NCBI RefSeq assembly: GCF_008033235.1
Contig: NZ_CP042432.1
Coordinates: 2,790,001-2,854,000 of the forward strand
DNA: 64,000 nucleotides
Origin: Anseongella ginsenosidimutans
Lineage (GTDB): Bacteria; Bacteroidota; Bacteroidia; Sphingobacteriales; Sphingobacteriaceae
Reading direction: 5' to 3'
Shown here: in pieces, positions 50,471 to 63,520 of the stretch
Numbering within the stretch: the first letter of the stretch is position 1
Layout: each line of letters opens with the position of its first letter
Position numbers and translations under genes: made by a program
Notes under the pieces: generated by a model
The model's database searches: none
Seen by the model: the letters and a program-made list of their open reading frames with translations, nothing else
What the model was told of the DNA's origin: nothing

Positions 50471-51682
50471 TTAGTTTTTTTTGCCGGGTGTACCGGAAGG
50501 GTCTTCGCCGGGTGCGTCGGAAGGGCCTTTCGATGTGCCGGAAGGAGCGTTCCCGGAGGCGTCGCTCCCGCGTGCGTCGTTCCCGGACGGGTCGGTTTTT
50601 TCTTCAATAATGGCCTCCTTTGATACAACCGGCTGCAGCAGCGTTTGTGTCGGGTAGGCAAAACGGATATCGTTTTTGGTGAATTCCTCAAAAATTTCCA
50701 GGTTGATCGCCTGCTGGATATCCATGTACTTATTATAATCGCCTCCCATTACATAATAGCATACTTCGAAATCGAGGCTGAAATTGCTGTAGGAGAAGAA
50801 ATGCGCCCTGTCAAAGATGACATCTTTTTGTTTCTTCACGATAGCGGCAAGCGTTTCGGATATAAATGCCAGCTGTTCCCTCGAGGTTTCATAGACTACA
50901 CCCACCTTGAATACCACACGGCGCCTGGCCATTTTCCGGTAATTATGGAGCCGGGAATTGGTGAGGTCGGTATTGGAAAATACCAGTTCTTCTCCTCCCA
51001 GGCTGTTCAGCCGGGTTGTTTTGATGCCGATCTCGTTGACCGTTCCCATTTTATCGTCAACGATAATAAAATCGCCTATTTCAAAGGGACGATCGAAGAA
51101 TATAACAAAGTAGCTGAAAAGGTCGGTAAGGATGGTTTGCGCCGCCAGGGCGATGGCAATCCCGCCGATCCCCAGGCCGGCAATAATAGTGGTCACATCA
51201 TAGCCCAGGTTAGCCAGGAGGAATACCAGCCCGAAAATCCAGATAGTGACCGTGATGATAAGCATGATCCCCTTGGTTTGACGAAGTTTTTCTTCGCCTC
51301 GTTCCTGTTTCCGGATATAGGAAGCGATCAGGAAGGAAATAGTGGTGACAATCACCCGGACGATCAAATAGGTGACCACGATCTTGGTGATCACCTCTAT
51401 TGCCCGCTCCATTCCCGCGGGGAAGGAAAGGTGGGAAATGCCCGCATACAAACCAATGACGTAAAACAACGGTATGAGGGTCCGGTTGAGGCTATTGACC
51501 AGGAAGTTGTCAATGCTGGTCTCCGATTTTGCAGCCCATTTCTTCAGCTGTTGCAGCAGAATGCTTTTAATGAGATGGCCGGCCAGGGCTACGCCCGCAA
51601 GAATGGCAAATCCCGTCAGGTAAGCCCTTACAGTATTTCCCCAATAAATACTGTCCAGGTGTATTTGTTGTAATTCAAACAT
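50471..51682 (-). CDS. MscS-family mechanosensitive ion channel
   Basis: 403 residues. N-terminal membrane helices (TGFAILAGVALAGHLI, LIPLFYVIGLYAG, YLIVRVIVTTISFLI, IFGLVFLLANLGY) lead to the pore-lining and beta domain GLGIGGIAIALAAQTILTDLFSYFVIFFDRPFEIGDFIIV, here read as separate landmarks, and the soluble vestibule. The last ~44 residues are an unusual low-complexity tail of SGN/GSDASGN/SGTS/SDAPGEDPSGT repeats (bases 50474-50605). It opens under membrane tension to protect against osmotic downshock. It ends the minus-strand block that starts at 58635. Confidence 0.9.
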   Translation of the reverse strand: MFELQQIHLDSIYWGNTVRAYLTGFAILAGVALAGHLIKSILLQQLKKWAAKSETSIDNFLVNSLNRTLIPLFYVIGLYAGISHLSFPAGMERAIEVITKIVVTYLIVRVIVTTISFLIASYIRKQERGEEKLRQTKGIMLIITVTIWIFGLVFLLANLGYDVTTIIAGLGIGGIAIALAAQTILTDLFSYFVIFFDRPFEIGDFIIVDDKMGTVNEIGIKTTRLNSLGGEELVFSNTDLTNSRLHNYRKMARRRVVFKVGVVYETSREQLAFISETLAAIVKKQKDVIFDRAHFFSYSNFSLDFEVCYYVMGGDYNKYMDIQQAINLEIFEEFTKNDIRFAYPTQTLLQPVVSKEAIIEEKTDPSGNDARGSDASGNAPSGTSKGPSDAPGEDPSGTPGKKN

Positions 51683-51687
51683 ATCTT

Positions 51688-52356
51688 TTATAGTCCCATC
51701 AGCGCCTGACGGACCGCATCCTGCTCTATCATCTTATAGCCTTCAGGAATTTCAAATAAACTTTCCTCCAAAGGGCCCTGGTCTATGGATTGTACAGTAA
51801 TGGTTGTGTTTACGCCATTCTGTTTGCTGTGAACCTGCATGGGAAACCAATCTCCTTTAGGAAGAAATTGGTTCCCGGGTACATAAACCGGGAGCAGCTC
51901 TTTGGTGTACCACAGCTCCGAAGTGTCGGAAGAAGCTTCCCGGATAATCAGGGCTTTCCGGCAATCATAGCCCAGGATCTCTTTTTTTTCATCTATATAT
52001 CGAATCTCATATGCGCCCAATTGCTCCAGGGCTTCGTTTACCTGGGCGGAATCGGTCTTTACCGCCATCTTGTTGCCCAGGATACTCATGAGGGTAACGG
52101 CGCTATTCTTTTCATTATCGCCAAGTACGATGATTTCCGACATCGCCGTTTGGATCTCCAGTCTTGTGTGGGGGTCTTTCAGGTAAATCGTAAATTCCCT
52201 GGGCATCATACTCTGCATCTCCGGCGAAAGGTCTTTCGCTTCTACCTGCACACCGTATTCAACGGTTCCTTCAAAATTTGTTTGGGCAGTAGCATTCAAA
52301 CAACACAGCAGCATCGCGGCCAGGGCAATTGCCTTGAAAGATAAATTGTTCCTCAT
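51688..52356 (-). CDS. DUF4412-like exported protein
   Basis: 222 residues from ATG 52356 (MRNNLSFKAIALAAMLLCCLNATAQ, a signal peptide). The mature part, FEGTVEYGVQVEAKDLSPEMQ, YIDEKKEILGYDCRKALI and TSELWYTKELLPVYVPG, resembles DUF4412/GLPGLI-type periplasmic proteins. Function unknown. It sits between the enoyl-CoA hydratase and MscS genes. The frame continues upstream to 52395 but overlaps the neighbouring gene without conservation. Confidence 0.65.
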   Translation of the reverse strand: MRNNLSFKAIALAAMLLCCLNATAQTNFEGTVEYGVQVEAKDLSPEMQSMMPREFTIYLKDPHTRLEIQTAMSEIIVLGDNEKNSAVTLMSILGNKMAVKTDSAQVNEALEQLGAYEIRYIDEKKEILGYDCRKALIIREASSDTSELWYTKELLPVYVPGNQFLPKGDWFPMQVHSKQNGVNTTITVQSIDQGPLEESLFEIPEGYKMIEQDAVRQALMGL

Positions 52357-52388
52357 GAAAGCAAATATATAATTATTAAGATTATTGG

Positions 52389-53168
52389 TTACCATTGCGG
52401 TTTTTCCTTTGAAAGGAAGGCCCGAATCCCTTTTTTGAAATCTTCGCCCATGCGCGCCTTTGCATTGAGTTCCGCGGCAAGTTCAAGGCCCTGCGGCAGG
52501 GACAATCCGCTTAATGCAGCAAGCAATTCTTTGGTGTACGCAATAGAAGCTCCCGAAGTTTCCGAGGCCAGCTTCCGGGCTAATGCCCCTGCCTCGTCTT
52601 CCAGCTTTCCCTCACCGCAGATGTAATTAACCAGCCCGCAGGCCTTTGCCTGTTCCGCCGTGATGAGTTCCCCTGACAGCAGTAATTCCCTTGCCTTGCC
52701 TTCTCCCGTCTTTTGAAGCAAAAAACCTGCCACCAGGGCCGGAACAAAGCCAATCCTGCATTCAGTATAACCATAGCAGGCTTGCGGATCGCTGTATACC
52801 AGGTCGCATGCCGTTACCAGGCCGCAGCCCCCGGCAATGGCGTGCCCCTGCACCTGGGCGATCACTATCTTAGGGCAGCTGCGGATTTGCAGGAAGAGGT
52901 CTTTCAGCCGCTGGCTGTCGGCAAGGTTTTCCGCGTAGGAATTTTGCTGCAGTTCCAGCAGGTATTCCAGGTCAGCGCCTGCACTAAAAACTTCTCCCGA
53001 AGCTTTCAGTATGACTACTTTTACCTGTTCGTCATTGGCGGCCTTACCGAAAGCTTCCCGAAGTTCTTCCATCATCCCTGCATTCAGGGCGTTCTTTTTC
53101 TGCGTGCGGTTAAGCGTAATAAATGCGATCCTGTCCTGGCTATCGTATTGAATAAATTTGAAGTTCAT
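52389..53168 (-). CDS. Enoyl-CoA hydratase/isomerase-family protein
   Basis: 259 residues from ATG 53168 (MNFKFIQYDSQDRIAFITLNR). The oxyanion-hole motifs are SAGADLEYL and IAGGCGLVTACD, and the catalytic Glu lies in YGYTECRIGFVP. The crotonase-fold length is normal. It acts on an acyl-CoA in the cytoplasm; the exact reaction is unknown (hydration or isomerisation, possibly methylglutaconyl-CoA or enoyl-CoA). Its start overlaps the end of comEC by 29 bases. The frame upstream to 53309 lies inside comEC and is not used. Confidence 0.85.
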   Translation of the reverse strand: MNFKFIQYDSQDRIAFITLNRTQKKNALNAGMMEELREAFGKAANDEQVKVVILKASGEVFSAGADLEYLLELQQNSYAENLADSQRLKDLFLQIRSCPKIVIAQVQGHAIAGGCGLVTACDLVYSDPQACYGYTECRIGFVPALVAGFLLQKTGEGKARELLLSGELITAEQAKACGLVNYICGEGKLEDEAGALARKLASETSGASIAYTKELLAALSGLSLPQGLELAAELNAKARMGEDFKKGIRAFLSKEKPQW

Positions 53169-55662
53169 TTTTGTTTCCGGGTTTCCCGCCTGCGTTCGGG
53201 CTTCCTGGCAGACGGACGATGAATGCTCCTGATCTTCTGACGGAATAAAACGGTATGTCCCACTTACGGCAATACGTTTCAAGGTAGCTATCCAGGGCGT
53301 TCGATACACTCGCCCCGCTCACCAGCATCTTTACATCGAAAGATTGCCTTATCTTTTCCATGTGAAGGTAGCTATTTCCCGTGATAAGTAAAAGATCGCA
53401 GGGGAGGGCCTTTGCGCCGGTGCCCGCCTTCCCGCCGGTGCGGGGATATGTGAAGTTTTTGTCTACCAGGAGTACCCGTAGATTGAAAAATTGCAGATAG
53501 TGCCCTCGTTTTAGCAGGTAGTTGCTGCCGGGATTGTCGGCGGGTTCGCTGGTTTGCAGATGCCTGATCCCCGACTTGTCCAGGAATGGCTGAACTGAAT
53601 ATGCATAGTCCCGTTTGCTAAAGGGTTTTTCCAGCAGCAGTACCGCGGTCTTCCCAGAAAGAAAGCCGATCGCCTGGTTTTCCCGCAAATGGAAGTAAAT
53701 AAGCAGCCGTTGCCTTGCTTGCCGGTAATGTTCAAGGGTAAAGGAAAAAGCAAGGGCCAGGGAAACACATAGGGCGCCCGTTAAAAATGCCGCTTTCCGC
53801 GATAACAGGAAAAATGCAATGGCAGGTATGAGCAGGTACAGGCCGGCACACTCGGCCGGAGTGATCCAGAGGCCGTCCAGCACGGCTCCCGGTAGCTGGC
53901 TGAAAAAATACATTCCGCTTTTCATCATATCTATCAGAAAAGAAAGCTGCTCCGCAAGAAACAAGGCAGGAGCGTCTGTTCCCGAGAGCAGCAACAGCAG
54001 GATCCCGCCGTACAGGATCAGACTGGCCAGGGGAATCAGTACAAGATTGGCCGGAAGAAAGTACACCGGGAACTGGTGGAAATAAAAAACCGCCAGGGGG
54101 AAGGTAGTCAGCTGGGCTGCCAGCGAAACCGCGGCCATGGACCATATATATTTCAAAAAGCGCTGCAGTAGCCGGGGAGTCCGGCGCCGGTGCATCCCGG
54201 GGGCATAATCGCTTGGTGAATAAAGTGCCGCCAGGCGCGAATAGAAACAGATCAGTCCCAGAACAGCCAGGAAAGAAAGCTGGAAGCCTACATCGGCCAG
54301 CACCAGGGGATCACTGGCAAGGAGCAAAAAAGCCGTTAAAGCCAGCACATTCCCTGCGCTATGTTGCTTGCCAAGGAACCGTGCGATAGCATAAAGTACG
54401 ATCATCCAGGCCGCCCGGCAAACAGGAGGCGAAAGTCCCGTGATACAGGCGTACAGCGAAACCCCCGAAATAATAAGGAGCAATTGCGGAACTTTTCCAC
54501 CCGGAAAAAAGCTGAGCGGTTTCAGGATGAAGCTGATCAGCCAGTAAAGAATGGCCACGTGCAGCCCTGAAACGGAAAGAATATGGATAGTACCGGTAGC
54601 AGCAAAGGCGCTCACCGTGTCACGGTCAATCCCGCTGCGGTAACCCAGCACGAAGGCCGAAAGCAGAGCCGCATTATCTCTGTCGCTGAGCAAACGCTCA
54701 AAAACGTCTACGCAGCGTTTCTGCCATCCTGCCGCCCGTTTTATCAGCGGATTCCCGGAGTTGCTCCCCGAAGGCGTCCACTCTGCAGAAGAAACAAAAA
54801 CCTGGTGGTAAATATCCCTGGCGGAAAGGTAGGCCCGGTAATCAAAGGCTGCCGGGTTGCGGGGAGAGGGAATATCCTGCCAGGCAGCCGTGATCCATAA
54901 TCCGTCCCCGTACGCCGGAATAAGCCCGTTCTCCGGCGAAAGCTCGTTCTCCGGCGAAAGTCCGCCCTCCGGCGAAAGCCCGTTCTCCGGCGAAAGTCCG
55001 CCCTCGGGCGAAAGCTTGCCCTTTCCGGACGTTTCGTTCTTTGCAGCAGATTGATTCTCCTGGGGAAGCCGGTTCTTCTGGGGGAGCCGGTTCTTCTGAC
55101 GAATATAGACCAGCAGGCGGCCTTTCGTTTTTTTGATCGCCTGGCTCTTGCGCAGCGGAGCGGGCCGAAATGGTGTTTCCGGTACCGCCGGGAACTGTGC
55201 TTCCGGAGCCCCCGGAGATCGTGCTTCCGGAGCCCCCGGCAATCGCGTTTCCGGTACTCCCAATAATACGCGCGCCTCAAAGCGGGTGAACTTTCCCCTC
55301 TTTTCGGGAATGGAGCTTACCTGTACGTACAGCGCTTGCCAGGACTGCCGGCTGAAATGCTCCCGGAAATGCAGGCTGGTTTTGGCCCGCGCCAGCTGGA
55401 ATCCCGCGCAGAACAGGAATATAAGGCCGATGCTTCCCGGGATCCACTTCTTCAGGCCCAGGCCTTTTTTACTATATAGCGTCAGCAGGTAGGCAAGCAA
55501 CAGGAATGCCAGCAGCCCGTACATTTCCCGGTAATAGAAAGCGCTCTCCGGCGACACGTGCAAAGCCAGCGCGATACCTCCGCCAAACGGCAGCAGCAGG
55601 CGCAGCCAGGGATTTCCTGAAAGATAAAACCGGAATGTTTCCAGCGAAAACAGCTGTTCCAT
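53140..55662 (-). CDS. comEC: ComEC/Rec2-family DNA-uptake channel
   Basis: 840 residues. N-terminal membrane helices flank an OB-fold DUF4131 domain (about 100-290), which is enlarged by three sets of tandem repeats. The competence domain follows (about 320-600), with the signature GTIHILSVSGLHVAILYWLI and ITGLSPPVCRAAWMI, then more helices. The C-terminal ~150 residues look like a degenerate metallo-beta-lactamase fold without the metal motif HxHxDH. ComEC carries single-stranded DNA across the inner membrane during transformation. The genes upstream on the same strand encode a ComEA-like helix-hairpin-helix barrel and a PorV-like protein. Confidence 0.9.
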   Translation of the reverse strand: MEQLFSLETFRFYLSGNPWLRLLLPFGGGIALALHVSPESAFYYREMYGLLAFLLLAYLLTLYSKKGLGLKKWIPGSIGLIFLFCAGFQLARAKTSLHFREHFSRQSWQALYVQVSSIPEKRGKFTRFEARVLLGVPETRLPGAPEARSPGAPEAQFPAVPETPFRPAPLRKSQAIKKTKGRLLVYIRQKNRLPQKNRLPQENQSAAKNETSGKGKLSPEGGLSPENGLSPEGGLSPENELSPENGLIPAYGDGLWITAAWQDIPSPRNPAAFDYRAYLSARDIYHQVFVSSAEWTPSGSNSGNPLIKRAAGWQKRCVDVFERLLSDRDNAALLSAFVLGYRSGIDRDTVSAFAATGTIHILSVSGLHVAILYWLISFILKPLSFFPGGKVPQLLLIISGVSLYACITGLSPPVCRAAWMIVLYAIARFLGKQHSAGNVLALTAFLLLASDPLVLADVGFQLSFLAVLGLICFYSRLAALYSPSDYAPGMHRRRTPRLLQRFLKYIWSMAAVSLAAQLTTFPLAVFYFHQFPVYFLPANLVLIPLASLILYGGILLLLLSGTDAPALFLAEQLSFLIDMMKSGMYFFSQLPGAVLDGLWITPAECAGLYLLIPAIAFFLLSRKAAFLTGALCVSLALAFSFTLEHYRQARQRLLIYFHLRENQAIGFLSGKTAVLLLEKPFSKRDYAYSVQPFLDKSGIRHLQTSEPADNPGSNYLLKRGHYLQFFNLRVLLVDKNFTYPRTGGKAGTGAKALPCDLLLITGNSYLHMEKIRQSFDVKMLVSGASVSNALDSYLETYCRKWDIPFYSVRRSGAFIVRLPGSPNAGGKPGNKNELQIYSIR
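54925..55014 (-). repeat. Five 18-base tandem repeats inside comEC (LSPE[GN][GE] units)
   Basis: Five consecutive 18-base units with the core CTCCGGCGAAAG encode LSPEGG-LSPENG-LSPEGG-LSPENE-LSPENG (residues 217-246). Units alternate between two variants. Because 18 is a multiple of three, gain or loss of units would keep the frame. Confidence 0.85.
55060..55260 (-). repeat. Further in-frame tandem repeats in comEC (18-base and 24-base units)
   Basis: At 55060-55095 two 18-base units encode KNRLPQ twice (residues 190-201). At 55165-55260 four 24-base units encode GVPETRLP, GAPEARSP, GAPEAQFP and AVPETPFR (residues 135-166). Together with the five units at 54925-55014, the OB-fold domain holds three separate low-complexity inserts. 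Confidence 0.75.
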
Positions 55663-55664
55663 TT

Positions 55665-57833
55665 TCAGAAGCTTAGCCGAATCTGCATGCGGACGTCCGG
55701 CTTTTGTTTCCCCTTGATCTCATCAGGCCCCGAACCGATGCGTTGGCGGTGAAAATAACGAAGCAAGCCGCCTCGCAGGCGGATGTCCAGCGTTTTCCAG
55801 GGCTTCCATCGAATACCCAGGTAGGTTTTGAACCCTTCATCATAGTAAAAGGCCAGGCTGGCCCCCGAAAGCAGGCTGCTTTCATAGGAATAGATCCGTG
55901 AATCATAGTCGTCCGTGTTGAAATAGCTAATCCGGGCGTTGAAGCTTAGCTTCCCCGGCGCCCAGCGAATATCCTGGAAAATGCTGAAACCCGATTTTCC
56001 CGCGTCGGCATTTTCCGAACCGACGCCGGAATGTTCAACCGGCCCGGAGTCGTTCCCGGATTGTTTCGTGCCGGTCCATCCCGGCCTGGAAGCAGAACCT
56101 GCATGAAAGAAGGAATAATCTACCCGTGTCCTGAGGCGCAGCCGGCGACTAATATGATATTCCGCATGGATCCTGGCGGCCTCCTGCCTGGTTTCAGTAG
56201 CTTCCCACAGGTGATTTCCATCTATTTCCCGGTTACGTGGCTTGCTGGTCTTTCGATAGCGGCCATAGAGCAGGAACTTTTTGTCAGGGCGGAAACTTAG
56301 CTGGGCCAGCAGCTCGTACCCGCTTGAAGGAGCGTCCACCCGGTAACGCAGCCAGGACCAGGAAAAAGCATCTGCATAAGCTGTGAGTGTCCATGCAGGG
56401 GAGAAACGGCTTTCAAGACCCAGGTAAATGCCTCTTTCTCCCCAGGCGTTGGAAGATTCGCCGAAGGGAGCAGCATACAGGGCCTGATAATCCTTGCCAT
56501 AGTTACGCCAGGCCGCAGCCAGTACCAGCCCGGCGGCCGGGCTGAATAAAATGCCGTTGATAAAGGCCCAGCCCTCGCCTCCGGGAGCGCCTTTCCAATT
56601 CGCGAACCGGCTGTGCGCGATTTCCCCGAACAAAAAATAATTTGCCCGTCCAAACGTATAGTCAAGAGAAACGACGTTCAGGCTTTCCCCGCTGAATTCG
56701 TAACGCTCGTAAAGGTCGTCTCCCGGCAGCAACGGTTTGTCAAAAGACAGGCGATGGCCCGTAAAGCCTATTGAAAACTGCCTGGAAACCTGATATTCCA
56801 TGTTCAATCCAAGTAACTTTTCGCCAAGTGTCTTGCGGGCGGCAAGTTCGCCAGGACTCCGGTGGATCCCCGAACGGCGGATGGCGCTCACGGCGGAGGC
56901 GCCGTCGAATTCGCTCAGGGTGGCGTCCAGTTTCCGCGAAGAGAAAAAAGGGGTAAAGACCAGTTTTCCCCATGCAAGGCTTCCGGCGGCGCCGCGAAAA
57001 AAATAGCCTTCGCCGGAAGAGTTATGAGGTTTTATCCCCTGGGATTGCCTTGCAATATTCAGGGCCGCCGGGCCTTTACCCAGGCTGAAGCCGTTCCAAA
57101 GGGCCAGCCCCTGCCCGAACTGCAGCAGGTAATCGCCAATCAGCAGGTTTTTCAGGCTACCCCGGGCAGGCTGGACAGAAACATTCCCTGAGTAAAAATC
57201 AAAGCCCTTTACACCATTTTTGCCGGTTAATGCTTCTCCAGGATCCTTTTCGGCGAGCAGGTGCAGCCTGAAATGCTTACCCTGCCGAAACCGGTAACGG
57301 AAATTAAGCCTTTCCGGGCCTCCGGGCAAACGCGATCCATCCTGGCCGGCATATCCTTTTTGCCTGGCCAGCACCCTGGAATAATAAGCAAGTATCTCCT
57401 GTTGGGGATGCCGGAAAATGTCCCGCGGAGAGAAGGACGTAACAGGCCCTTCCGCCTTCACGGTTACGAAGGGAAGCAACTGACGCACCAGGGGAAGGTC
57501 AAAATTTTTTACCGATTGCAGTTCCAGGATATCCGCCAGCGGGCCGGCAATACGGATATGATCCAGGAGCGAGCTTATTTGGAGATCATTTAATATAAAT
57601 AAGGCATCCAGCTCTTCTGCGCTTGCGTTATTCAGGTCCAGCGGGTGCCTGAGGTGCCAGGCAAGGCGGTCTGTAATTTCGCTCAGATCGTACTCGCCGG
57701 CTTCGCTTTCGCTTAGCCTGGCGGCTTGGCTTTCCGCAAGCTGTTCCGCCAGGGAATCAATTGCCGGTTGGGCCTGCAGGCCCGCTGCAGAAAGAATCAG
57801 GAATAGCCCTGCGGGAAGATGTTTAAAATACAT
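55665..57833 (-). CDS. ComEA-like helix-hairpin-helix domain fused to an outer-membrane beta-barrel
   Basis: 722 residues with a signal peptide ending near LQAQPAID. Residues ~66-125 resemble ComEA: DLNNASAEELDALFILNDLQISSLLDHI, then DILELQSVKNFDLPLVRQLLPFV, a helix-hairpin-helix that binds double-stranded DNA in ComEA. The remaining ~590 residues are alternating amphipathic strands rich in aromatic residues with YFLFGEIAHS- and RMQIRLSF-type ends, an outer-membrane barrel. The stop is 3 bases from the comEC start. DNA binding at the outer membrane or a porin for DNA entry is inference from the fusion and context; the family is usually annotated only as helix-hairpin-helix protein. Confidence 0.75.
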   Translation of the reverse strand: MYFKHLPAGLFLILSAAGLQAQPAIDSLAEQLAESQAARLSESEAGEYDLSEITDRLAWHLRHPLDLNNASAEELDALFILNDLQISSLLDHIRIAGPLADILELQSVKNFDLPLVRQLLPFVTVKAEGPVTSFSPRDIFRHPQQEILAYYSRVLARQKGYAGQDGSRLPGGPERLNFRYRFRQGKHFRLHLLAEKDPGEALTGKNGVKGFDFYSGNVSVQPARGSLKNLLIGDYLLQFGQGLALWNGFSLGKGPAALNIARQSQGIKPHNSSGEGYFFRGAAGSLAWGKLVFTPFFSSRKLDATLSEFDGASAVSAIRRSGIHRSPGELAARKTLGEKLLGLNMEYQVSRQFSIGFTGHRLSFDKPLLPGDDLYERYEFSGESLNVVSLDYTFGRANYFLFGEIAHSRFANWKGAPGGEGWAFINGILFSPAAGLVLAAAWRNYGKDYQALYAAPFGESSNAWGERGIYLGLESRFSPAWTLTAYADAFSWSWLRYRVDAPSSGYELLAQLSFRPDKKFLLYGRYRKTSKPRNREIDGNHLWEATETRQEAARIHAEYHISRRLRLRTRVDYSFFHAGSASRPGWTGTKQSGNDSGPVEHSGVGSENADAGKSGFSIFQDIRWAPGKLSFNARISYFNTDDYDSRIYSYESSLLSGASLAFYYDEGFKTYLGIRWKPWKTLDIRLRGGLLRYFHRQRIGSGPDEIKGKQKPDVRMQIRLSF

Positions 57834-58635
57834 AGCTCAGGGTGATTTGAGGAGTGAAACCAAGCTGGCGGTGGCTGGAAGCTGACAGATCAAGCGCTAG
57901 TCCTTTATAGCGGATTCCCAGTCCGCCGTACTGCCGGAAGGGGCTGGAAGATATCCCGCACCTGAGGGCCAGGTGCGGATGTGGAAAGTATTCAAGACCG
58001 GTATTGACAGTTACCGGGAACCCGGAAATGCTTTCCAGCTCGAAGGCGGCCAGCACTTTCTCAGAGAATGAATAGGCGGCTCCCAGGGAGGCGATCAAAG
58101 GGATTTCCGCATAAAGCTCATCGTTAAAGGCCGCCCTGCCGGGGTTCGAAATTGCTGCTCCCAGCCGCAAACCTGACCTAAGAGCGGCCTGGACACCTGC
58201 GGTGACCGACCATGCCTGCTGACTCGTATAGCCCGGAAGCTTTATTCCATGATAATTAATACGGAACCCGGCGCTGAATTCCGGCGACAGGGCGCGGGCA
58301 TAACAAAGGGAAACAAGATGCTCATTATACAGGCCGGAGCCGAAAAAATTGATATTCAGGCCGAAAACCTGTTTTTTGAAAGGAATCACAGTGGTCAGCG
58401 CCCTGGTATCCAGCTCCTTCATTAAAAACCGCCGCTCAAGGGCAAAGGAGATCGCGGGCGAGCGGCAGCCGGCTATACCGGCGGGGTTTCCGATGGTATT
58501 CCAGGGGCCCTGCAAAGCAGCATCAGCGTTGGCCAGCGCCGCGGTTCTGGCGCCGTGAATCCAGGTAATGGGTTGGGAAAATGCCTGACAGGCGAAGCCA
58601 CCGCATAGCAGCAGCAGGAATGCTTTGGCAAACAT
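57823..58635 (-). CDS. PorV/PorQ-like outer-membrane beta-barrel protein
   Basis: 270 residues with a signal peptide (LLLLCGGFACQAFSQ). The mature part opens with WIHGARTAALANADAALQGPWNTIGNPAGIAG, the start of PorV/UPF0164-type barrels, and continues as beta-strands to the end SYVF. Some relatives shuttle T9SS cargo. No T9SS core gene is nearby, so its role here may be to serve the adjacent helix-hairpin-helix barrel. It overlaps that gene's start by 11 bases. First gene of the comEC block. Confidence 0.7.
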   Translation of the reverse strand: MFAKAFLLLLCGGFACQAFSQPITWIHGARTAALANADAALQGPWNTIGNPAGIAGCRSPAISFALERRFLMKELDTRALTTVIPFKKQVFGLNINFFGSGLYNEHLVSLCYARALSPEFSAGFRINYHGIKLPGYTSQQAWSVTAGVQAALRSGLRLGAAISNPGRAAFNDELYAEIPLIASLGAAYSFSEKVLAAFELESISGFPVTVNTGLEYFPHPHLALRCGISSSPFRQYGGLGIRYKGLALDLSASSHRQLGFTPQITLSYVF

Positions 58636-58677: not shown

Positions 58678-59528
58678 TCAGGGGGAATACAAAACAGCAA
58701 AGCCACCTTTTTCGAACGGGCATTCCAGGGCCAGTATATCGCCGCCTTTTACCTTGGTTTTTTTACCCCACTCCGCGGTTTCCAGCCCGATCCATTTCAG
58801 CCTGAATGTTTTCTGCTGCTCCTGAAGATCCAGTTCGACAGCTCCCCGGCCTGTGAAATATAAGACGTAAAATTTTCCTTCTTGCGCCGAAAGGAAGGCT
58901 TCGTTTTCTTTATTCTCTTTCAGCAGGTCCATGCGGGGATCGATTTCCCACATTTTTACGATCGATTCAATTTCCCGGATCGTCCGGATACAATTGAGGG
59001 AAAGAGAGCTTAGCCCCAGGCCGGAAGGTGGGCGGTGAAACCTGCTGGCGGCAAATCCGCCGGTAATATTACGGCAAAATGTCGATCAAAACGGTCACAA
59101 ACTTCTTTTTGTACAATGATTTTTCGTTTGCTTGTTTCTTCCAGCAGCTTCTCAAACCGTTCCCAGTAAACCGGGTTCCACTTTTCCAGGTCGTATTTTC
59201 CGTCGGGATTCTGGTAGAATGCCCGCTCATTTCCCGCATCCCTGTCGCTCATGGTATTCCGGATATAATTCCCTCCGGCTTTCACAAGGCTGTCAAGATG
59301 TGAAGCAATATGCGGATGCTGGAAAAGATTGTCATTATCAGTAGCGCCCAGCAGCAGCAGGGGTTTGCCCTTGTATTGCCAGTAGGACGGATAATGAACA
59401 GAGGGCTGAATACCATTCCCCGCTTTGGAGCGGGATTTTGCGGTTTGCTGTGCCAGGCCGGCTTCAGGCCAGATAACAGGAAACACTATGAGCAGGAGGA
59501 GGACCGCTCTTAGCAAATTTTTGAACAT
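58678..59528 (-). pseudogene. Internally deleted secreted hydrolase (DUF4038-type barrel with collagen-binding-like C-terminus)
   Basis: The N-terminal part (59528-~59090) has a signal peptide and the start of a TIM barrel: YWQYKGKPLLLLGATDNDNLFQ, KAGGNYIRNTMSDRD, KIIVQKEVCDRFD. The frame then stops at 59010. In another frame the C-terminal part runs from FCRNITGGFAASRFHRPPSGLGLS (about 59060) through IREIESIVKMWEIDPRMDLL to the C-terminal beta domain ending at 58678 (GKFYVLYFTGRGAVELDL). The barrel middle, about 150-200 residues in intact relatives, is missing. The joint falls between DRFD and RFxRN-like sequences. The deletion plus frameshift indicates a dead gene. An intact enzyme would act on a polysaccharide outside the cell. 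Confidence 0.7.
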
Positions 59529-59686
59529 CTCCGGGCGGTTTAGGTTGCCGCCGGCCTGTTCCGGCCTGCGGAATAAGCAAGTTAACAAATTTCAAGGGAA
59601 AAACGACCCTTGGGCTATGCTAAAGTAAAACGCGGCGCAGCTTGCAGTTAAGATACTGCACAGCATTATTATTACACAGACCGGAT

Positions 59687-62024: not shown

Positions 62025-63520
62025 TCAGGCTATAATGGGGCGGACAACTTCCCCCGCCACATCGGTCAGGCGGAAAGGTCTTCCCTGGAATTCATAAGTT
62101 AGTCGTTCATGATCGAAACCAAGCAGATGCAGCATGGTGGCATGTACATCATGCACGGAAGTTTTACCACTCAGCGCTTCAAAGCCAATCTCGTCGGTTT
62201 CCCCGTAGCTGCCTCCCCGCTTAACGCCGCCGCCGGCCATCCAGATCGTATAGGCATCGGTATGATGGTCTCTTCCCAAAAAGGGCATTTCCTGGTTCCC
62301 CCGGTTTTCCTGCATGGGCGTGCGGCCAAACTCTCCACCCCAGACTACGAGGGTCTCGTCAAGCAACCCTCGCTGTTTCAGGTCCATCAGGAGGGCTGTC
62401 ATGGCCCGGTCTATTTGCTGGCATTTGCTGCGGAAACCTACATTTATGGCCGTGCTTTTATCCGTGCCGTGACTGTCCCATCCCCAGTCAAATAACTGAA
62501 CAAAGCGCACGCCTTTTTCTACCAGTTTACGGGCAAGCAGGCAATTGTTGGCAAAGGATTCCTGGCCGGGTTCCGTGCCGTATAACTCGTGGATATATTC
62601 CGGTTCGTCATTGATATTCATGACATCCGGAACGGCGACCTGCATTTTATAGGCCATTTCATATTGGCTGATACGGGTGATGATCTCCGGGTCGTGAAAA
62701 GCCTCGTACTCCTGCCGGTTAACTTCGTTAATGGCATTGATCGTTTGCTTCTTCAGATCGCGGTCAATGCCTTCCGGGTCGCTGATGTACAGCACGGGAT
62801 CGCCTTTGGAGCGGCATTGTACTCCCTGGTAAACCGAAGGGAGAAAGCCGCTTCCCCATACGCTTTTGCCTGCGTCGGGAGTTTTTCCGCCGGACGTAAG
62901 GACTACGAAGCCGGGCAGGTTGCTGTTTTCCGAACCCAGCCCGTAGGTGACCCAAGAGCCAATGCTCGGTCTTCCCAGCCGCGGACTGCCGGTATGCATG
63001 AACAGCTGGGCGGGGCCGTGGTTGAACTGATCGGTATGTACGGCTTTAAGAAAGCTGACCTCGTCTACCACCTGTGAAAAATGAGGCAGGTGATCCGATA
63101 CCCAGGCGCGGCTTTCGCCGTATTGCCTGAATTCGGCCTGAGGCCCCAGCATCTGAGGTACACCGCGGATAAAAGCGAACTTTTTCCCTTCCAGCAGGGA
63201 GGGGGGCAGGGTTTATTATGGAGTTTATGCAGTTCGGGTTTATAGTCGAATAATTCCAGCTGGGAAGGGGCGCCGGCCATGTGCAGGTAGATCACACTCT
63301 TTGCGCGGGGAGCAAAGTGCGGTATCTTGGGCGCCATGGGATTCGCCGGGTCTATGAGTGATGGAGCCGCTCCCGTACCTGCGATACTACTGCCGCATCC
63401 TGCCAGCAGCGAACCGAGGGCAATGCTGCCCATGCCGGCTACGCAGTCAAGCAGGAAATGCCGCCGGGTGATATAACTAAGCGCTTTCTGGTTGGCTTCT
63501 TTAAGTAATTTCTCGTTCAT
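62025..63520 (-). CDS. DUF1501 (sulfatase-fold) exported protein, frame broken once
   Basis: The N-terminus SYITRRHFLLDCVAGMGSIALGSLLAGCG is a twin-arginine lipoprotein-type signal. The body has VIYLHMAGAPSQLELFDYKPEL, DQFNHGPAQLFMHTGSPR, FDWGWDSHGTDK, VVWGGEFGRTPM and GRDHHTDAYTIWMAGGGVK, the DUF1501 signatures. As read, the frame shifts after NKPCP; adding one base to the G6 run at 63201-63206 (C6 on the coding strand) restores CPPSLLEGKKFAFIRGVPQMLGPQ. DUF1501 proteins belong to the alkaline phosphatase/sulfatase fold and accompany DUF1549/1553 proteins in Planctomycetes and Bacteroidota; their substrates are unknown. The start lies 7 bases from the DUF1553 stop. Confidence 0.88.

Follow-up and report, generated by a model that had tools for sequence, protein, structure and literature searches.

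Tandem helix-hairpin-helix (HhH) proteins of the ComEA type, described from Bacillus, Geobacillus and Vibrio, are small, either free or membrane-anchored, and carry no barrel, and in B. subtilis ComEA the best conserved DNA-contact residue is K164 (PMC9747964). The same HhH motifs can serve more than one ligand: those of Pasteurella ComE1 bind both fibronectin and DNA (PMC2601033). Within the Bacteroidota, a transformation screen in Riemerella anatipestifer yielded its own set of unfamiliar genes (RA0C_RS02645, RS04915, RS04920 and ComEC), and transformation there requires ComEC, a triple-HhH protein and an outer-membrane barrel alike (PMC8459023). Here, we describe a locus that likewise combines ComEC, HhH motifs and an outer-membrane barrel, but in which an HhH domain and a barrel, separate genes in Riemerella, are fused.

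Gene order and the comEC gene

The window analyzed here, a stretch of 64,000 nucleotides from Anseongella ginsenosidimutans (contig NZ_CP042432.1, positions 2,790,001 to 2,854,000), contains three minus-strand genes encoding, in order, a PorV-type barrel, a protein with an HhH domain fused to a large barrel (hereafter, the HhH-barrel), and ComEC (Table 1). The initial annotation proposed these genes as a DNA-uptake module spanning both membranes, and the tight arrangement it described was borne out, with an 11-bp overlap between the first two genes and a 2-bp gap between the HhH-barrel gene and comEC. The directon, however, is longer than first described, continuing almost gaplessly beyond comEC through an enoyl-CoA hydratase gene, the ATG of which, at about 53168, overlaps the 3' end of comEC, and on to DUF4412/GLPGLI and MscS genes, so that tight packing alone is uninformative with regard to function.

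Table 1. Features of the locus and of the adjoining directon, with window coordinates
Feature	Coordinates	Strand	Evidence
PorV/FadL-type 14-strand outer-membrane barrel, 270 aa, signal peptide and barrel	57823..58635	-	PorV_fam, AlphaFold2, PDB fold match
HhH-barrel protein, 722 aa	55665..57833	-	ORF, phylum-wide family, AlphaFold2
Degenerate ComEA-type (HhH)2 domain, residues ~50-125 of the HhH-barrel	57459..57686	-	Family profile against 8dss; relatives against HHH_3
Large predicted outer-membrane beta-barrel, residues ~140-722 of the HhH-barrel	55668..57416	-	AlphaFold2 strands; usher alignments
comEC, 840 aa, DUF4131 and Competence	53140..55662	-	Pfam
Low-complexity tandem repeats inside comEC	54922..55254	-	Tandem Repeats Finder
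Enoyl-CoA hydratase/isomerase, outside the proposed module	52389..53168	-	PF00378, 2.2e-59
DUF4412/GLPGLI protein	51688..52395	-	Continues the directon
MscS	50471..51682	-	Continues the directon

The window ComEC has the Competence (PF03772, 6.1e-57) and DUF4131 (PF13567, 1.9e-13) domains that it shares with ComEC/Rec2 proteins. The C-terminal Lactamase_B domain, which is optional in ComEC, had no Pfam match in the window protein, and the HxHxDH metallo-beta-lactamase motif was not found in ComEC from the window or from 7 relatives; this nuclease motif is usually missing from Bacteroidetes ComEC (PMC6299819). The window protein also differs from ComEC/Rec2 in that its soluble N-terminal region carries a repeat-rich insertion (18/36-bp and 24-bp units in the DNA), and owing to these repeats it is ~140 aa longer than relatives of ~700 aa.

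Two apparently disrupted regions were observed in the window. One (58680-59588), which looks like a frame-disrupted gene, lies upstream of the PorV-like gene: a glycosidase-like frame ends early (59588-59010), and glycosidase-like coding resumes in another frame to about 58680. Farther along, at 62025-63520, a single DUF1501-type protein seems to have been split by a frameshift into two overlapping ORFs on the minus strand (63520-63065 and 63152-62025), adjoining DUF1553-like, sugar isomerase-like and LRR/cytochrome-type genes.

Predicted folds and HhH domain ancestry

The AlphaFold2 model of the HhH-barrel (pLDDT 78.9) comprises a signal helix, a helix at residues 24-40, five HhH helices at residues 50-122, and finally a very large barrel of ~580 residues with roughly 24-26 strands as read from the strand list, in agreement with the fusion originally proposed. 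The FimD/PapC usher barrels align over residues 127-722 (3.6-4.0 A for the FimD cryo-EM entries), but, as with AlgE-type barrels, the likeness, at ~10% identity, is only general, and a PDB fold search with the large barrel returned general barrel matches without a specific family, the lack of other hits being uninformative. The model is that of a large predicted outer-membrane pore bearing a putatively periplasmic HhH domain.

The PorV-like protein was modeled with higher confidence (pLDDT 89.5) as a 14-strand barrel, with the T9SS PorV as the best PDB fold match (8gl6_F, E 3.5e-10, TMq 0.79), followed by FadL/TodX types. Its similarity to the NCBIfam PorV_fam model (5.1e-14, 52.6 bits) falls below the 90-bit cut-off, and the true PorV of the same genome is a separate gene scoring 423.5 bits. 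Short and sub-threshold in comparison with the T9SS shuttle, the protein belongs to a subfamily of its own, with a distribution that follows that of the HhH-barrel.

Taken by itself, the window protein reached 13.1 bits against HHH_3 in a Pfam search (cut-off 27), too weak a match to identify its HhH domain, for which we therefore turned to relatives and profiles. HHH_3 was matched at E<0.01 by 37 of 44 close relatives, whereas distant members reached about 52-68 bits and also matched ComEA models, with TIGR01259 (ComEA) detected down to 1.1e-13. The best PDB sequence match of the family profile was ComEA 8dss (E 0.003), aligned at residues 60-120, where the homologous tandem HhH of ComEA aligns end to end, and a canonical distant member matched the ComEA-related protein 2duy at 2.3e-9. 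The VNINTA-like lead-in of ComEA is represented by PLDLNNAS in the window protein. These comparisons identify the domain as ComEA-derived and uphold the assignment to the ComEA/HhH families made at the outset.

Given this homology, the HhH-barrel might itself be a ComEA-like DNA receptor, with the fused domain gripping DNA as it leaves the pore, and a few distant members do have canonical GxG loops and a positive charge. The window protein and its aligned relatives, however, retain neither the glycines of the hairpins nor the lysine with which ComEA contacts DNA. In the alignment of 44 close relatives, no sequence has Gly at residue 80, where the first hairpin glycine would lie, and 41 have Phe there, and position 112, at the end of the second hairpin loop, is Asp in 42 and Asn in 2 instead of Gly; phylum-wide, the first hairpin glycine is kept in only 7 of 41 HhH-barrels (4 have gaps). 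The position of ComEA Lys164 is occupied by Gln85, which is invariant across the family alignments, and the net charge of the window domain is -5. Because the GxG loops are gone, the lysine position holds Gln and the domain is acidic, the window HhH domain is probably not a DNA clamp, contrary to the ComEA-like role first assigned to it, and we consider the receptor reading improbable.

For gripping DNA in the periplasm, a separate protein encoded at another site in the genome is the better candidate. This 335-aa protein is membrane-anchored and contains three canonical HhH motifs; its gene (L002:886-1890, about 1945.5-1946.4 kb) is located just before an adenine phosphoribosyltransferase-like gene, and it is likely the counterpart of the transformation-essential Riemerella HhH protein of the RA0C_RS02645 type.

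Partners across the Bacteroidota

We detected the HhH-barrel in 226 of 296 sampled Bacteroidota genomes, representing 107 of 140 genera, and literature searches found no paper describing it. Outside the Sphingobacteriaceae, partners were counted at 40 loci from about 30 families: a PorV-like gene lies just upstream of the HhH-barrel in 26, and comEC is nearby in none, yet is present elsewhere in all of these genomes. Thus, the HhH-barrel represents an undescribed, phylum-wide family with a PorV-type barrel as the usual partner, and a universal partnership with comEC is rejected. The PorV-like subfamily is absent where the HhH-barrel is absent. The HhH-barrel was not found in the sampled genomes of two families, f3 and f4, presumably Flavobacteriales, which keep comEC and HhH proteins; no replacement barrel was recognized within about 10 kb of comEC in these genomes, which left the RS04915/RS04920 arrangement of Riemerella untraced.

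This distribution bears on an alternative in which the two proteins form a PorV-assisted outer-membrane transporter of non-DNA cargo (protein, lipid or polysaccharide), with the HhH domain docking a protein and the comEC adjacency being a lineage-specific gene order that persists because the genes are translationally coupled or share expression, and not because they act jointly. That the phylum-wide partner is the PorV-like gene and not comEC, that the presence or absence of the PorV-like subfamily follows that of the HhH-barrel, that DNA-contact features are lost in most of the family, that PorV is itself the partner of a giant barrel, SprA, in the T9SS, and that the PorV-like model best matches PorV from a T9SS complex all favor this alternative, as does the capacity of ComEA-type HhH motifs to bind a protein, fibronectin, besides DNA (PMC2601033). 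Less readily accommodated is the persistence of the barrel-comEC pair in several genera of Sphingobacteriaceae while its flanks turned over, and in several genomes after loss of the PorV-like gene (see below). On balance, we give the non-DNA transporter slightly less than an even chance.

A more specific version of a PorV-dependent function would be a role in the T9SS itself. Besides the PorV-type partner, such a role could draw on the divergent genes found beside the pair at 17 of 41 loci (L103, L097 and 15 others, all outside the Sphingobacteriaceae), which fall into a single cluster and proved to be PorD in the two cases tested. However, genomes of family f17 have the HhH-barrel without PorD, those of f3 and f4 have PorD without the HhH-barrel, and the window genome encodes its own true PorV. 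A T9SS role is therefore rejected on distribution, and we regard it as very improbable.

The link to comEC in Sphingobacteriaceae

Within the Sphingobacteriaceae, the picture is different. comEC directly follows the HhH-barrel gene in 29 of 29 relatives of the window's family and, out of 80 named loci, in all 75 from Sphingobacteriaceae that had enough flanking sequence to tell; of the other 5, one is a contig end and four are MAG contigs that carry the label Bacteroidales or Bacteroidetes. The family (f1) includes Hufsiella arboris, Daejeonella oryzae and Pedobacter glucosidilyticus. The same order was found in 20 of 20 loci of 8 further genera of the family, in which the flanking genes differ (gyrB/recQ, NUDIX/recQ, DUF4412, alaS/MerR, or amidase/aldehyde dehydrogenase). 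A PorV-like gene lies upstream in 12 of these 20 loci, and several genomes of genera g2 (probably Sphingobacterium) and g6 have lost it altogether but kept the barrel-comEC pair. Chance adjacency is rejected, given that the pair recurs while its flanks change. The barrel-comEC link is specific to the Sphingobacteriaceae and resistant to rearrangement; the conserved comEC neighborhood anticipated by the initial annotation therefore holds within this family and fails in the rest of the phylum.

The link is not without losses. One genus of Sphingobacteriaceae, g4, lacks both the HhH-barrel and the PorV-like subfamily but keeps comEC, in a neighborhood resembling that of the window (NUDIX, aminotransferase, DUF4412, comEC, then MerR and alaS), and some g2 HhH-barrels (L193, L194) are interrupted beside an intact comEC. 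Since ComEC is near-universal and is retained even where competence is unknown (PMC6299819), such losses count against a role in DNA transport without disproving it.

In the window genome, profile searches detected neither a secretin (PF00263), in line with the secretin-free route suggested initially, nor a T2SSE (PF00437) ATPase of the PilB/PilT/GspE type, two components of DNA uptake via a type IV pilus and secretin. In this setting, we tentatively favor the following scheme. The PorV-type barrel and the HhH-barrel would constitute an old two-barrel outer-membrane transport module of the Bacteroidota, that is, a wide pore bearing a periplasmic (HhH)2 domain, together with a partner of the PorV family. 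In the Sphingobacteriaceae, where the pore gene became fixed beside comEC, the HhH-barrel might act as the outer-membrane port that hands its substrate, DNA, to ComEC in cells without a secretin or type IV pilus ATPase. In this lineage, the HhH domain would more likely serve for docking, or as the mouth of the pore on the periplasmic side, than grip DNA; the separate triple-HhH protein would hold the DNA in the periplasm, and the DNA would cross the inner membrane through ComEC.

The sequences and models establish gene order, predicted folds, conservation, the loss of DNA-contact residues, and the lack of a secretin and PilB/PilT; DNA as the substrate, the formation of a complex and the direction of transport are inferred. 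The link to comEC, the ComEA-type ancestry of the HhH domain, the missing secretin and T2SSE, the triple-HhH gene, the parallel with Riemerella and the co-absence of the PorV-like subfamily speak for a DNA port; the lack of comEC at all 40 loci elsewhere, the loss of hairpin glycines and lysine, the absence from g4, the broken g2 barrels, the f3 and f4 genomes, and the metabolic genes in the directon speak against it. We therefore put forward an outer-membrane DNA port feeding ComEC, formed by the HhH-barrel and its PorV-type partner, as a tentative candidate function in the Sphingobacteriaceae, about equally likely as the transporter of non-DNA cargo. A more far-reaching proposal, in which the two barrels would serve as a secretin-independent outer-membrane DNA port of the Bacteroidota and, encoded alongside ComEC in the Sphingobacteriaceae, would complete a compact DNA importer across both membranes, appears rather unlikely.

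Nevertheless, the HhH-barrel is a testable candidate for the outer-membrane DNA door in those Bacteroidota that have neither a secretin nor pilus ATPases: a widespread family in which a domain of ComEA origin sits on a predicted wide pore, encoded next to comEC, offers one clear gene to knock out. If the cargo is not DNA, the pair would still represent an as yet unassigned outer-membrane transport system, a phylum-wide two-barrel module with a PorV-type partner outside the T9SS.
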